This document shows, piece by piece, positions 26,213-46,194 of a stretch of DNA of 64,000 bases. How positions within the stretch are numbered: position 1 is the stretch's first letter; each line of letters starts with the position of its first letter. The notes below the pieces were generated by a model. That model was not told the origin of the DNA and did no database searches. It was given only the letters and a program-made list of their open reading frames with translations. The position numbers were made by a program, and so were the translations under genes. This DNA comes from Ignavibacteriaceae bacterium (GTDB taxonomy: Bacteria > Bacteroidota > Ignavibacteria > Ignavibacteriales > Ignavibacteriaceae), in NCBI GenBank assembly GCA_013042995.1, contig JABDPB010000073.1, positions 1 through 64,000 on the forward strand, written 5' to 3'.

Positions 26213-26692
26213 ATGAAGAAATTAGTTTACGTTTTATCCATTCTCACCTTAGGCATAATCGTTATGTTTGTCTATGGAGGTTGTAACGATGAAACAACTC
26301 CAGTTGCACCTACAACAGTAGCAACAACAGTAGCAACAACAGTACCTACAACTGCAACTGCTACTGGTACTGGTTCTTTACCACCTGGAGTCTCCGGATC
26401 AATAAGTAACACTCGTGTGGCCCTTTATACGGACCTTAATAACTGGAATTTAGATGTTACTTTCAAATTTGGTGCCTGCGATGCCAACGGTAACTATACA
26501 TTGGCTGATTTTAATCCGGGTAATTATTTTATGGATGCATGGAAGGATAATGACAACAACAGTGTATGGGGTTCTTCAGGGGATTATGTGTGGGTGTTCG
26601 GAAGCGGATCGTATCCTAACTACACACTCTCGGAAAAATCATTTACTCTCGGTTCAAACTCTCAAAATTTTGAAATTTTTATTGTCCCCTGA
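26213..26692 (+). CDS. Small lipoprotein with threonine-rich linker
   Basis: A 159-residue predicted lipoprotein: signal segment with VYGGC, lipidated C24, then a threonine/alanine/valine-rich linker (TTVATTVATTVPTTATATGTG, split across a short DNA repeat), then a ~105-residue beta domain containing DANGNYTLADFNPGNYFMDAWKD. That last pattern, a calcium-like DxNG followed by Y-L-x-x-PGNY, resembles the small carboxypeptidase-regulatory-like or SdrD B-type beta-sandwich modules. Likely displayed on the cell surface; the linker would hold the domain away from the membrane. Strong RBS and a strong terminator show an independent, expressed unit. Confidence 0.8.
   Translation: MKKLVYVLSILTLGIIVMFVYGGCNDETTPVAPTTVATTVATTVPTTATATGTGSLPPGVSGSISNTRVALYTDLNNWNLDVTFKFGACDANGNYTLADFNPGNYFMDAWKDNDNNSVWGSSGDYVWVFGSGSYPNYTLSEKSFTLGSNSQNFEIFIVP
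26312..26345 (+). repeat. 12-bp tandem repeat in the lipoprotein linker
   Basis: The unit acaacagtagca occurs at 26312-26323 and 26324-26335, with a partial third copy to 26345. It encodes the Thr-Thr-Val-Ala linker. Whole-codon periodicity means copy-number change would lengthen or shorten the linker without a frameshift. Confidence 0.85.
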
Positions 26693-33732: not shown

Positions 33733-35316
33733 CTAAAAATTCCATTCAATCTCTTCAAGCCAAATTTGTAATTTTAATTTATCGAGATTTAAAACATCAT
33801 CGTTTGTAACTGAGGGAGGATGGGGTATAAGAGAATTTAAGGTGCTATAAACTAAGAGTCGCTTTGAAGGACTTACAATATTAAAAAGATTCCATAATGT
33901 AAGCGCATCTCTTTTTTCTGCAAGTGAAACTATTCTTTCTACATACAGTTCGCTTTTTGTGTATAAAAATTCTTTTACTGCATCTGCAAAATCGGTTGCC
34001 GCATTTTTATTGTACGGAACGCTTAATCCAAATGTTGCATTGAAATCCACATAGTGATTTGTAGCTGCAATAATTTCTTTATCATTGTTTGTAATCGTAA
34101 TCCAACCATTATCAACAAACACTTGTCCGCTTTTATCTGCATTAAGCTCAACTGAATAAATTGAACCCAAATAGTAACCTGAAATAATTGATTCAGGAAT
34201 CTGCAAATTAAAAAACTCTTCTGCACCAGAACAATCAACCTTAATTTTTCCCTTAATTAATTCCGCAGAATTTTTTTGATCAAGCCGTTTAAATTCGGTT
34301 TGCTCTTCAACAGTAATTTTTCCCACACTCGGTATAGTGACTTCCGCCACAGAGTTCTCCTCTGTCTTCAGTATTTCATTGGCAGCAAATGTTGAACTTC
34401 CGGTTAATTGATTGCGCCCAAGCTTAGCCGTTCCGCCTTGCAAGCTTGCTTCCCAGCCTTTTAGGCCACTTGTAATTACAATGTAACCGGCAACTGCTAT
34501 TGCTATAATTAGTATCGTCCAGCCAAGCTTCTTTTTAAATTCAGGACTAAATGAAGGAACTTCTATGCCTATTTCCCTCTTTACTTTTAAATCTTTGGGC
34601 TTCGATTTAATTGGTTCTTTTTTTACATCAACTACTTCGGTATATTCATCTACTATCTCTTCTTCTTCCTCTTCAACTCTATCTATAAGTTTTAATTCAT
34701 ATATTTCTGTAAATGCATCTTTTAGAATTTTTTTATCAGCTTTAAATTTTTGGGGAAGTTCTGTAATCTTCTTTTTTAGCATCTCACTTGTTTGAATGAA
34801 ATCTGCTTTAAGTAAAAAATCTTCCGCGCTTTTAATTTTATCTTTTATTTGATTCGGAGAAAGTGCAGTCATTCCAAAAAGTTCTTCGGCAGAATAATTC
34901 TCTATTTTACTTAATACAAAAACCGAACGTTCCTCTTTCGGCAGTTTGCATATCTCTGCATCGAGCTGAGAAATTTTTGAGTCCGGTTCTTTTTCCTCTA
35001 TTTTATTTTTATTAAAAAGTCGCCTTTTTTTCTTCTCCTCTTTAATTTCTCTTAGATGCTTAAGTGCCTGGTTTATATTTAAGCTATCAAGCCAAAGATT
35101 AAACGGCACATCAGTTCGGATTTTATGGATCTGTTTCCAGGCTTCAACTAAAGTTTTAGATGCTAATAATTCTGCATCCTGCTTGTTGCCAGTTAACCTG
35201 TGCGATATTGTATAAACCCTGTTCAGGTTCATTTCAAAAAGTTGCTCGAGCGCAGCATTGTTGCCCGATTGTGCACTCTGAAGCAGCGAACGTATGTATC
35301 TGCTTTCTACTTCCAT
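33733..35316 (-). CDS. ECF-type sigma factor fused to a transmembrane FecR-like domain
   Basis: A 527-residue protein with an order I have not seen in a named family. Residues ~8-90 look like sigma-70 region 2 (AALEQLFEMNLNRVYTISHR, DAELLASKTLVEAWKQI, DVPFNLWLDSLNINQALKHLR). Residues ~117-172 look like ECF region 4 (LPKEERSVFVLSKIENYSAEELF, then SPNQIKDKIKSAEDFLL). A helical, very acidic linker (~175-255) leads to one membrane helix (~264-284). Residues ~290-415 follow the FecR plan: L-TGSSTFAANEILKTEENSVAEVTI, AELIKGKIKV, LGSIYSVELNADKSGQVFVDNGWITI. The last ~110 residues are helical. Normally FecR-like regulators and their sigma factors are separate proteins. Topology predicted: sigma inside, FecR domain outside. 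It is a single gene with no TonB receptor nearby. It could be a membrane-tethered sigma factor released by proteolysis, or a sigma-derived DNA-binding sensor. Confidence 0.78.
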   Translation of the reverse strand: MEVESRYIRSLLQSAQSGNNAALEQLFEMNLNRVYTISHRLTGNKQDAELLASKTLVEAWKQIHKIRTDVPFNLWLDSLNINQALKHLREIKEEKKKRRLFNKNKIEEKEPDSKISQLDAEICKLPKEERSVFVLSKIENYSAEELFGMTALSPNQIKDKIKSAEDFLLKADFIQTSEMLKKKITELPQKFKADKKILKDAFTEIYELKLIDRVEEEEEEIVDEYTEVVDVKKEPIKSKPKDLKVKREIGIEVPSFSPEFKKKLGWTILIIAIAVAGYIVITSGLKGWEASLQGGTAKLGRNQLTGSSTFAANEILKTEENSVAEVTIPSVGKITVEEQTEFKRLDQKNSAELIKGKIKVDCSGAEEFFNLQIPESIISGYYLGSIYSVELNADKSGQVFVDNGWITITNNDKEIIAATNHYVDFNATFGLSVPYNKNAATDFADAVKEFLYTKSELYVERIVSLAEKRDALTLWNLFNIVSPSKRLLVYSTLNSLIPHPPSVTNDDVLNLDKLKLQIWLEEIEWNF

Positions 35317-35438
35317 TAATTACTTATGATTTTTGTAGATGCTTGTCTTCTTTTCAAATTTACAGTTTGATGTCTATTATATGCAATTATTATACCCCTT
35401 TTTGTTTTTCGACTGAGATGTAAGATGGCTGAAAATCA

Positions 35439-35940: not shown

Positions 35941-35966
35941 AAAACGTCCCAAACTTGGGACGTTTT
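35941..35966. terminator. Bidirectional terminator between the cytochrome c gene and fbaB
   Basis: aaaacgtccca pairs with tgggacgtttt over 11 bp with a 4-nt loop. Thymine runs follow on both strands, as expected for a terminator shared by converging genes. Confidence 0.9.
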
Positions 35967-43203: not shown

Positions 43204-46194
43204 ATGGATATAAAAGGTCAACTAAAAGAACTAAAATTAGAAAACGTATTCGGCTCAAGACTTAAAAAGTTTCAGAAGTTAATGCGTATAAAAATTCGTG
43301 ATATTCTTTTGGTTTCAAGTATCTACGATTACTATCTGTTTGAAGAAGACGGTAGGCTCTATGAACTGATCAGAAGTGAATACCAAAACTTAAACTTAAG
43401 CCAGGCTCCTGAGGTAACGCATGTAACCACAGGTACAGAGGCATTAGATTTATTAAGAAACGAAAATCAATTTGATTTGATTATTACAACCCTACACATA
43501 GAAGATATGCATGTAATTAATTTTGCAAATGAAATAAAAAAAGAAAAAATAAATCTGCCCATTATTTTACTTGCTTACGACAATAAAGAAAGAAAGGAAC
43601 TAACTACACACTATGATACTTCTGTTTTTGAAAGAATATTTATTTGGAGCGGTGACTTTCATTTGTTAATAGGAATTATAAAATACCTTGAAGATAAAAT
43701 GAATGTTGAAAACGATACTCAAAATATTGGGGTGCAGGTAATAATTCTTGTTGAAGATAATATAAAATTTTATTCGTCATATCTTCCCTTAATTTATACT
43801 GAGATTTTTAACCAATCGCAACGCCTCTTACAAGAAGGAATCAACATTACTCATAAATTTCTAAGAATGCGTGCGCGTCCTAAAATTTTATTATGCTCTA
43901 AATATGAGGAAGCCTGGGCTTATTACGAAAAATATGAAAAATACGTACTTGGAATTATTCTCGATAATAACTTTAGACATAACGAAGTAAGGGATTCAGA
44001 AGCAGGATTAAAATTTGCTACTGAAGTAAATAGTCGCCATAAAGATATTCCTATCTTAATTCAAACAAGCGATCAGAATCTTGAAGAAAAAGTGAAGGAA
44101 CTTGGAGTATCATTTCTCTATAAAAATTCACCAAGATTATTGCACCATTTAAGACAGTTTATGTTAGACCACTTTGGTTTTGGTGATTTTGTTTTTCAAA
44201 TGCGCGATGGAGAGGTGGTTGGAAGAGCTTCAAACTTAATGGAGTTTGCAGATCAAATCGGTAAAATTCCTGATGAAAGTCTTGTACATCATGCAGAAAG
44301 AAATCACTTCTCACGATGGCTTAAAGCAAGAACTGAGTTCTATCTCGCACATAAATTAAGACCGCAAAAAGTGAGTGACTATAAAACACCAGATCACTTG
44401 CGTAATGATTTAATAAACGCAGTTTACGATTTTATAGATGATAGACAAAGGGGGGTTATTTCAGAATTCAACAAAGAAACTTTTGATCCTAAAAATAGCT
44501 TTGCAAGAATTGGTGGAGGTTCTCTTGGTGGTAAAGCTCGTGGTTTGGGATTTATCAATTCATTAATTACTAACTATAATGTAAAAGATTTATTTAAAGA
44601 TATTGAAGTATCTGTTCCTTCAGCAATTGTTATTGGTACAGAAATTTTTGATGACTTTATTAGAAATAACAACCTGGAGATGTTTGCACTTCAGGAAAAT
44701 GATGATTTAAAGTTAACTCAAACATTTATTGAGGCACCTTACTTCTCACATGATATAGAGCAGAAGCTTACAGATTTTTTGGAGATAACTAAGGTACCGC
44801 TTGCTGTTAGATCATCTAGTCTGCTTGAAGATTCTCAGTTTCAACCGTTTGCTGGAGTTTATCAAACCTACATGCTTCCAAACAGCAATCCAGATATAAC
44901 TGTACGATTGGAAGAGCTTCTTCAAACTATAAAATGCGTTTACGCTTCAACCTATCATCAAAAAGTAAAAGACTATATGAAAGCGACCTCCTACCGGTTA
45001 GAGGAGGAGAAGATGGCAGTTATTGTTCAACGGCTTGTTGGTTCGAAACATGGTGAAAAGTTCTATCCTGATTTTGCTGGTGTTGGAAAGTCATTCAACT
45101 TTTATCCTGTTCCGCCACAAAAATCCGATGATGGAATTGCTTTAGTGGCTCTTGGTTTGGGAAAAACGGTTGTGGAGGGAGGAAACACAGTAAGGTTCTG
45201 CCCAAGGTTTCCAAAACATCTTCTTCAATTCTTTTCTACAAAAGAAACATTAATGCACGCCCAGCAGGATTTTTATGCACTTGATCTCAAAGGAAAACTT
45301 GATCATCATCCTGATTCAATTAAAGATCCGCTTGTTAAAAAATACGAGTTAACAGTTTCTGAAGAAGATGGAACGCTATACTCAGTTGGTTCAACATATT
45401 CAACTGAAGATGAAGCAGTTTACGATGGTATATCGAGAGATGGAATTAGAGTTGTAACTTTTTCACCAATCTTAAAACACAAAATGTTTCCACTGCCGGA
45501 AATTTTAAATCTTTTGCTCAATCTTGGAACCTGGGGAATGGGCTCGCCTGTTGAAATTGAATTTGCAGTTAATCTTAGTGTCCCAAAAGGTAAGCCAAAA
45601 GAATTTGCAATGCTTCAAATGCGTCCATTGGTTATAAGCCGAGAGCTGGATGAATTAAAAATTGATTTTGATAGAAATGAATTAATTTGCGAAAGCAGGC
45701 AAGTGCTTGGCAACGGTGCAACAGATGACATTTTTGATTTAGTATTTGTAGATATTAACAAATTCGATAGGGGAAAAAGTAAAGTAGTCGCAGGTGAAAT
45801 TGCTCAACTAAACTCTAAGCTATTGAAAGAAAAGAAACCTTATGTTTTAGTTGGAATTGGAAGATGGGGCTCACTCGATCCCTGGCTAGGAATTCCAGTC
45901 ACTTGGGATCAGATATCAGGAGCGGCTGCGATTGTCGAATCCGGCTTTAAAAATTTTGAAGTCGAGCCATCGCAAGGATCACACTTTTTTCAGAATATTA
46001 CCTCTTTTCGCGTTGGTTATTTTACGGTGGATGCATCGAATAAAATAGGTTTTATTGATTGGGATTGGCTTCAATTTCAAAAAGCTGTTAAAGAATTTGA
46101 ATTTACTAAACATCTACAATTTCAAGCTCCTATTTCTGTTAGAATAAACGGGCACAAAAATAAAGGTATAATTATAAAGCCGGGAAATAATTAA
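43204..46194 (+). CDS. Two-receiver/PPDK_N fusion protein, copy 1
   Basis: A 996-residue cytosolic protein. (1) ~33-165, a degenerate receiver: the acidic pair is VSS and the phosphoacceptor site reads T96 (DLIITTLH). (2) ~178-325, a second receiver with acidic pair E184/D185 (LVEDN), phosphoacceptor candidate D254 (GIILD), T288 and K307, and an insert of ~60 residues with RMRARPKILLC between strand 1 and D254. (3) ~330-430, a linker (RNHFSRWLKARTEF, LAHKLRP). (4) ~432-810, the ATP-grasp domain of PEP synthase/pyruvate phosphate dikinase: GGSLGGKARGLGF, LAVRSSSLLEDS, EEKMAVIVQRLVG, VEIEFAVN, LQMRPL. (5) ~811-996, a conserved tail with VGIGRWGSLDPWLGIPVTW and H927 in SQGSHFFQN. The usual phosphohistidine and PEP-binding domains are absent. 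No Shine-Dalgarno precedes the ATG. Calling it PEP synthase would be wrong; a regulatory or phosphotransfer role is inferred. Confidence 0.85.
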   Translation: MDIKGQLKELKLENVFGSRLKKFQKLMRIKIRDILLVSSIYDYYLFEEDGRLYELIRSEYQNLNLSQAPEVTHVTTGTEALDLLRNENQFDLIITTLHIEDMHVINFANEIKKEKINLPIILLAYDNKERKELTTHYDTSVFERIFIWSGDFHLLIGIIKYLEDKMNVENDTQNIGVQVIILVEDNIKFYSSYLPLIYTEIFNQSQRLLQEGINITHKFLRMRARPKILLCSKYEEAWAYYEKYEKYVLGIILDNNFRHNEVRDSEAGLKFATEVNSRHKDIPILIQTSDQNLEEKVKELGVSFLYKNSPRLLHHLRQFMLDHFGFGDFVFQMRDGEVVGRASNLMEFADQIGKIPDESLVHHAERNHFSRWLKARTEFYLAHKLRPQKVSDYKTPDHLRNDLINAVYDFIDDRQRGVISEFNKETFDPKNSFARIGGGSLGGKARGLGFINSLITNYNVKDLFKDIEVSVPSAIVIGTEIFDDFIRNNNLEMFALQENDDLKLTQTFIEAPYFSHDIEQKLTDFLEITKVPLAVRSSSLLEDSQFQPFAGVYQTYMLPNSNPDITVRLEELLQTIKCVYASTYHQKVKDYMKATSYRLEEEKMAVIVQRLVGSKHGEKFYPDFAGVGKSFNFYPVPPQKSDDGIALVALGLGKTVVEGGNTVRFCPRFPKHLLQFFSTKETLMHAQQDFYALDLKGKLDHHPDSIKDPLVKKYELTVSEEDGTLYSVGSTYSTEDEAVYDGISRDGIRVVTFSPILKHKMFPLPEILNLLLNLGTWGMGSPVEIEFAVNLSVPKGKPKEFAMLQMRPLVISRELDELKIDFDRNELICESRQVLGNGATDDIFDLVFVDINKFDRGKSKVVAGEIAQLNSKLLKEKKPYVLVGIGRWGSLDPWLGIPVTWDQISGAAAIVESGFKNFEVEPSQGSHFFQNITSFRVGYFTVDASNKIGFIDWDWLQFQKAVKEFEFTKHLQFQAPISVRINGHKNKGIIIKPGNN

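Follow-up and report, generated by a model that had tools for sequence, protein, structure and literature searches.

A sigma factor of the ECF class fused to a FecR-like membrane protein in the Ignavibacteriaceae: a probable latent, membrane-tethered regulator

The window analysed here, a 64,000-nucleotide stretch of an Ignavibacteriaceae bacterium genome, encodes at 33733-35316 of the minus strand a 527-residue protein that joins an ECF sigma factor to a FecR-like membrane protein. This fusion is real and conserved, and we consider it probable that its product is a latent, self-inhibited, membrane-tethered ECF sigma factor that would be released by proteolysis. The gene is a single open frame of 527 codons, from ATG to stop, with no internal stops or frameshifts, and it has orthologous full-length fusions; the plus strand over the same interval is riddled with stops. 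An earlier note on this DNA had given exactly these coordinates and described a continuous frame without a join, which the analysis bears out, with the gene placed on the minus strand.

Reading from the N-terminus (all coordinates on the minus strand), the protein begins with a sigma-2 domain (residues 6-98, 35023-35301), its best-conserved part, assigned from Pfam Sigma70_r2, a Foldseek match to 4lup and a pN/pS of 0.07-0.18, followed by a sigma-4 domain with its helix-turn-helix (residues 117-169, 34810-34968), recognised by Pfam r4_2 in relatives and by its AlphaFold helices. Next comes an anti-sigma remnant made of the end of helix 3 and helix 4 (residues 177-214, 34675-34788), delimited by AlphaFold and by the junction alignment described below, and then a Glu/Lys low-complexity linker (residues 215-257, 34546-34674) of low pLDDT and poor conservation. 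The linker had been described as acidic, which holds for a short glutamate run (about 216-221) but not for the Lys-rich stretch that comes next. A single membrane helix with its N-terminus inside (residues 258-283, 34468-34545), a hydrophobic stretch with KKK on its cytoplasmic side that AlphaFold also models, connects to a periplasmic FecR-fold beta domain (residues 288-426, 34039-34455; AlphaFold, with Foldseek matches to 4m0n and to PupR, 6ovk). A periplasmic helical C-terminal domain (residues 441-526, 33739-33996), seen in the AlphaFold model and carrying conserved LTLWnL and mL..W..eIEw motifs, ends the chain. The two sigma domains, the one membrane helix and the FecR-like periplasmic domain that the earlier note had read from the letters are thus all present according to Pfam/NCBIfam, AlphaFold and Foldseek.

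Pfam searches with the single sequence gave a match above cutoff for Sigma70_r2 (E=2.3e-7) and sub-cutoff matches for Sigma70_r4_2 (E=1.1e-3) and FecR (E=0.15). NCBIfam ECF models match the protein with a best E of 5e-16, Sigma70_r2 and r4_2 were each found in 28/29 cytoplasmic modules of relatives, and the FecR cutoff is passed by the corresponding region of L024, a split relative (E=8e-7). The weak sigma-4 and FecR signals were settled by AlphaFold and Foldseek, which give those folds. With sigma-2 and sigma-4 only, no sigma-3, and ECF-type folds, the cytoplasmic part belongs to the ECF class.

A full-length AlphaFold model, built from an alignment of five orthologues (pLDDT 79.5), shows an all-helical cytoplasmic part, in which two sigma domains are followed by a pair of helices (177-229), then a disordered linker of Glu and Lys (pLDDT <50 over most of 220-257), a helix long enough to cross the membrane (258-283), a beta domain (288-426) and, at the end, a helical tail. 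Searched against the PDB with Foldseek, the N-terminal part resembled SigW bound by RsiW (E=3e-7), and its sigma-2 domain resembled sigma-E region 2 on -10 DNA (4lup; TM 0.91 over the target, rmsd 1.0). The periplasmic part resembled the putative anti-sigma protein BDI_1681 (4m0n, E=4e-5) and the cell-surface-signalling domain of PupR (6ovk, E=4e-4). A profile from five fused sequences, run against PDB sequences, also retrieved ECF sigma factors, SigW with E=6e-18. The sigma-2/sigma-4 folds that the earlier note had proposed to look for by structure prediction were therefore obtained.

The cytoplasmic module (residues 1-215) was modelled separately, with 29 fused and truncated relatives in the alignment, and folds compactly (pLDDT 88.5, pTM 0.84), with sigma-4 helices at 117-123, 127-138, 143-150 and 154-169 and with helices 177-185 and 195-214 at pLDDT about 92-95. 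Compared with inhibitor-bound sigma factors it gave a TM of 0.71 (SigW/RsiW) and an rmsd of 3.9 over 151 columns (RpoE/NepR), versus an rmsd of about 21-27 against ECF chains bound to RNA polymerase. The sigma domains are thus predicted to adopt the anti-sigma-bound and not the polymerase-bound arrangement, in a comparison that covers this fused module. In such an arrangement the helix-4 segment would probably be docked on sigma-2.

Full-length fusions of 511-537 residues are found in 17 genomes from six genera of the same family (g1, g13, g26, g19, g4 and g14), and an 18th genome (G085) carries an interrupted copy. Orthologous full-length fusions stand at 28-31% identity, and most fusion-bearing genomes share the gene neighbourhood: the usual order is cytochrome c, SIMPL, yyaL (DUF255 thioredoxin), fusion, lpd, aceF and aceE, while the window, like G017, G059 and G061, has lpd, fusion and cytochrome c. 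A strong palindromic terminator with an 11 bp stem (35941-35966) separates the cytochrome c gene of the window from the convergent aldolase gene. G060 and G062 hold two copies each of the fusion lacking the zinc-binding anti-sigma (ZAS) bundle (L104-L107), at sites without the usual lpd or yyaL neighbours. All five available congeners of the window genome lack the fusion, and two of them, G001 and G002, have lost the gene. Apart from this absence, nothing was found in favour of a misassembly or missed frameshift that had joined two genes, an explanation that is hardly credible and that we regard as ruled out: independent assemblies share the fusion, including the single-contig assemblies G030 and G023, with matching neighbours, and three genomes have the very gene order of the window. 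The earlier note had held that a failure to predict sigma folds, or absence of the fusion from close relatives, would tell against its reading; neither outcome was obtained, given the folds and the 17 genomes, although the five congeners do lack the gene. Beyond the order, in class and phylum samples, none of the matches listed covered both halves; the partners there are separate, often as FecR-like proteins of 580-800 residues. Whole-genome searches proved far better for finding relatives than a single-protein search for related loci, which returned one irrelevant ECF match.

The origin of the fusion can be read at its own locus. Split sigma/anti-sigma pairs are widespread across the order, and in G033 and G101 such a pair lies between yyaL and lpd, the same locus as the fusion, while in G026 it lies beside yyaL. 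The pair consists of two genes with a 4-base overlap, the first encoding an ECF sigma factor of 163-172 residues and the second a protein of 391-397 residues with an N-terminal ZAS domain (zf-HC2), a single membrane helix and the same periplasmic domains as the fusion. By synteny and homology, such a pair, carried at this locus by two related genera, is the direct ancestor of the fusion. In the junction alignment about 36-40 residues are missing from the fused proteins, a gap that takes in helices 1-2 of the anti-sigma domain together with its H-x3-C-x2-C ligands. The match picks up again immediately ahead of a conserved 'LPxxIxPxxxLWxxIF' segment, the counterpart of anti-sigma helix 4. This helix is retained in the fused proteins as 'LP.xIxP...IF..I'. 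Hence the class I (ZAS) domain that is intact in the split relatives is reduced in the 527-residue protein to helix 4, the bundle and its zinc ligands being gone.

Shorter forms with the sigma domains and helix 4 but no FecR domain occur in G015, G018, G032, G034, G066, G070, G071, G072, G074, G076 and G077, most of them at the same locus as the fusion; in G032 the protein ends just after the membrane helix. Six truncated orthologues (L014, L016, L033, L126, L127 and L128) appear to begin at CTG, with a conserved N-terminus that lies ahead of the next conventional start codon in frame and, in some of them, an AGGAG Shine-Dalgarno-like sequence just upstream. Split and fused forms are interleaved in both the sigma-domain and the FecR-domain tree. 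A single origin of all fusions and truncations was rejected (AU p=0.0006). For the ZAS-less fusions a single origin was not rejected (AU p=0.195), although in the best tree split pairs fall among them. Because the AU test rejects one origin, and because fusions that keep a CxxC motif (G026i and G065i) or have degenerate anti-sigma regions (G057i, G131i, G143i and G102i/G103i) stand apart, the sequences indicate that fusion arose at least twice in the order, and probably through several events. Genome G026 (L067 1968-3656, L066 2818-4493) combines the split pair, still in its ancestral place, with a separately formed fusion in which the zinc-finger motif survives. Elsewhere in the order, several of the split pairs have in front of them a gene for a small membrane protein of ~127-135 residues with a Gly-rich GGGG motif (L017 3276-3683, L020 3216-3599, L023 3240-3641, L024 1094-1477, L025 1918-2313, L029 2018-2401 and L032 187-570). 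Pfam returned no significant family for the one searched; these proteins resemble a pilin or minor envelope component, and are perhaps the sensor or target.

From these data we infer self-inhibition, cleavage, a signal and targets, in the following scheme. Two neighbours in one operon, the sigma gene and, downstream of it, the gene for the ZAS/FecR-like anti-sigma protein, fused and shed about 36-40 codons for the zinc-finger helical bundle; the covalent link would have taken over the role of the contact between helix 1 and sigma-4. The retained helix 4 would fold back onto the sigma domains and keep these closed, at the membrane. A signal from the envelope, sensed by the two periplasmic domains (FecR-like and C-terminal), would lead to site-1 cleavage, then to an intramembrane cut by a site-2 protease, and the freed sigma would recruit RNA polymerase. 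The self-inhibition reading is supported by the split ZAS pairs at the locus, the junction alignment, the module fold, selection and the precedent of IutY (see below). Against it count the closed conformation being a prediction, the weaker constraint on helix 4 in genus g26 (pN/pS 0.29), the variation of sigma-4 recognition residues in fused and split proteins, and the largely one-clade distribution of the substitutions considered next.

Class I anti-sigma factors grip their partner at two sites, helix 1 holding sigma-4 (at R149 and R178 of E. coli RpoE, from coevolution and crystal structures) and helix 4 covering regions 2.1/2.2 of sigma-2, where the polymerase binds (PMC7406223). At the aligned sites, split sigmas have H in 18/20 and R in 19/20, whereas fused proteins have N in 15/19 and I/V in 15/19, and R178 is kept in 2/19 (G095/G096, although fused). 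The numbering follows the E. coli RpoE sequence. This change, found mainly in one clade, fits a lost contact with helix 1, at sites that also contact -35 DNA. More tentatively, at a little under even odds, we propose that the covalent bond stands in for one of the two contact sites of the interface, that the zinc bundle is dispensable and helix 4 alone may shut sigma-2, that fusions occurred repeatedly, and that some lineages then came to hold a soluble, sensor-less sigma with a clamp helix.

A need for cleavage appears the best inference for how the sigma would be freed. Two M50 site-2 protease genes are present in the genome; since such proteases are near universal, their presence lends weak support to release. 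The protein could instead be active uncut, the helix-4 clamp opening reversibly and the tethered sigma binding polymerase at the membrane. Truncated descendants that drop the anchor and FecR domain yet retain helix 4 would suit a reversible switch of this kind, which is nevertheless improbable: IutY, the sole characterised hybrid, requires Prc and RseP (PMC5411451), and promoters all over the nucleoid would need to be within reach of a sigma held at the membrane.

Selection was examined between congeners. In g19 and g26, dN/dS was 0.02-0.11 in the sigma half and about 0.10-0.14 in the periplasmic half, values that are approximate as synonymous sites are near saturation. By region, pN/pS was 0.06-0.28 for sigma-2 and sigma-4 and higher for the flexible linker and membrane helix; the helix-4 segment gave 0.05 in g19, 0.17 in g14 and 0.29 in g26. 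Sigma-2 ranks with the regions under the strongest constraint, and the gene shows no decay in g19, g26 or g14. For the species of the window, purifying selection is suggested by the intact frame, the only guide as the gene is missing from close relatives. That the regulator is decaying, with fusion a step toward loss, might be read into a single locus that is found split, fused, truncated or without the gene, into the absence of the gene from congeners G001 and G002 and into the interrupted copy of G085. We think this very improbable, and largely ruled out for the three genera by low dN/dS and pN/pS, as dN/dS lies well below 1 and frames are intact in 17 genomes at identities down to about 28%, two genomes having two copies each.

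A more serious alternative, still unlikely, is a sigma-derived membrane regulator that keeps the sigma fold as a module for binding protein or DNA and has lost polymerase binding or -35 recognition. Regions 2.1/2.2 are conserved, yet the D..Q motif usually seen in region 2.2 is missing from this family, from its fused and its split members. Sigma-4 recognition positions are variable and poorly conserved in fused and split proteins alike, with an identity among fused proteins of just 0.27 in the recognition helix versus about 0.5 in regions 2.1/2.2, and R178 is gone in most of them. Weighing on the other side are the strong constraint on sigma-2, the detection of both Pfam sigma domains in 28/29 modules and the fact that the region 2.2 divergence is common to normally organised split pairs.

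Upstream of the gene, 46 bp from the start, a promoter-like TAAATTTG (35355-35362, minus strand) matches TAnnTTTG, the consensus of the Bacteroidota -7 element. This element occurs in 17/30 orthologous upstream regions versus a shuffle mean of 3.3 (0/200 shuffles as high), the upstream rows being related and hence not independent. Inspection by eye of the regions upstream of 19 fused genes revealed no shared ECF-like motif. An ECF autoregulatory promoter was accordingly rejected, and the sequences suggest an ordinary housekeeping-type promoter with no sign of autoregulation, which we count against the latent-sigma explanation.

The closest known counterpart is IutY of Pseudomonas putida, a characterised sigma/anti-sigma hybrid released stepwise by Prc and RseP (PMC5411451; reviewed in PMC9249621) and the only fused protein of this sort characterised experimentally (PMC8999054). 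ECF48, ECF52 and ECF53 are predicted one-piece membrane sigma factors for which activation by proteolysis is likewise predicted (PMC8999054). The fusion that the earlier note had described is thus real, continuous and present in other genomes, but the idea of it has precedents. Like IutY (ECF243), the 527-residue protein carries in a single chain an ECF sigma, one membrane helix and a FecR-like domain in the periplasm, with no intact cytoplasmic anti-sigma domain. It differs from IutY, which has 374 residues and whose partner is a TonB-dependent receptor with a signalling domain, IutA, in its ZAS anti-sigma ancestor, in the helix-4 segment and long linker before the membrane, and in its helical C-terminal domain. 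By analogy, it may work like IutY, release included, without being a FecR/TonB system.

Such a system, in which FecR senses through a TonB-dependent receptor, was the framing of the earlier note, and it does not hold. Although the FecR-fold domain on a single membrane helix (Foldseek BDI_1681 and PupR) recalls FecI/FecR/FecA, the split ancestors carry ZAS (zf-HC2) in place of the FecR cytoplasmic tail, the C-terminal domain is helical, and no STN receptor partner was found. A search of the genome (about 92% complete) for STN (PF07660) gave no match, while STN-bearing control genomes gave matches; a Pfam FecR scan of the genome found nothing; and within the window no TonB receptor gene adjoins the fusion. 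We therefore rejected a FecR/TonB signalling system.

The actinobacterial ECF48, ECF52 and ECF53 proteins (e.g. SCO4117) similarly fuse sigma to a membrane-anchored anti-sigma extension, but they keep the zinc finger between sigma and membrane that is lost in the 527-residue protein, which has the FecR fold; SCO4117 has Pro-rich and carbohydrate-binding extracytoplasmic parts instead. The CxxC-retaining G026i and G065i are closer in plan to ECF52. SigW/RsiW-type pairs of an ECF sigma and a membrane ZAS protein represent the ancestral kind, and the predicted conformation matches RsiW-bound SigW, although these are two non-covalently held proteins and here there is one chain without the ZAS bundle. 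The design is rare but already known, while its ZAS-less, FecR-fold version is new; a search of a library of papers found none linking Ignavibacteri- with 'ECF sigma factor'. The locus displays across living genomes separate genes, a fusion minus the zinc bundle, then sensor loss, and makes testable which part of an anti-sigma factor silences an ECF sigma once both are tethered. Pipelines that count only stand-alone region 2 + 4 ECF proteins (as in PMC9239204) will miss such regulators.

Two other genes of the window were noted. The gene at 26213-26692 (plus strand) encodes a small protein, a putative lipoprotein, whose signal peptide is followed by a TTVATTVATTVPTTAT repeat and which has no Pfam match. 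At 43204-46194 (plus strand), a 996-residue protein combines a response-regulator receiver with a PPDK/PEP-synthase ATP-binding domain (Pfam), an unusual pairing of signalling and enzyme domains.
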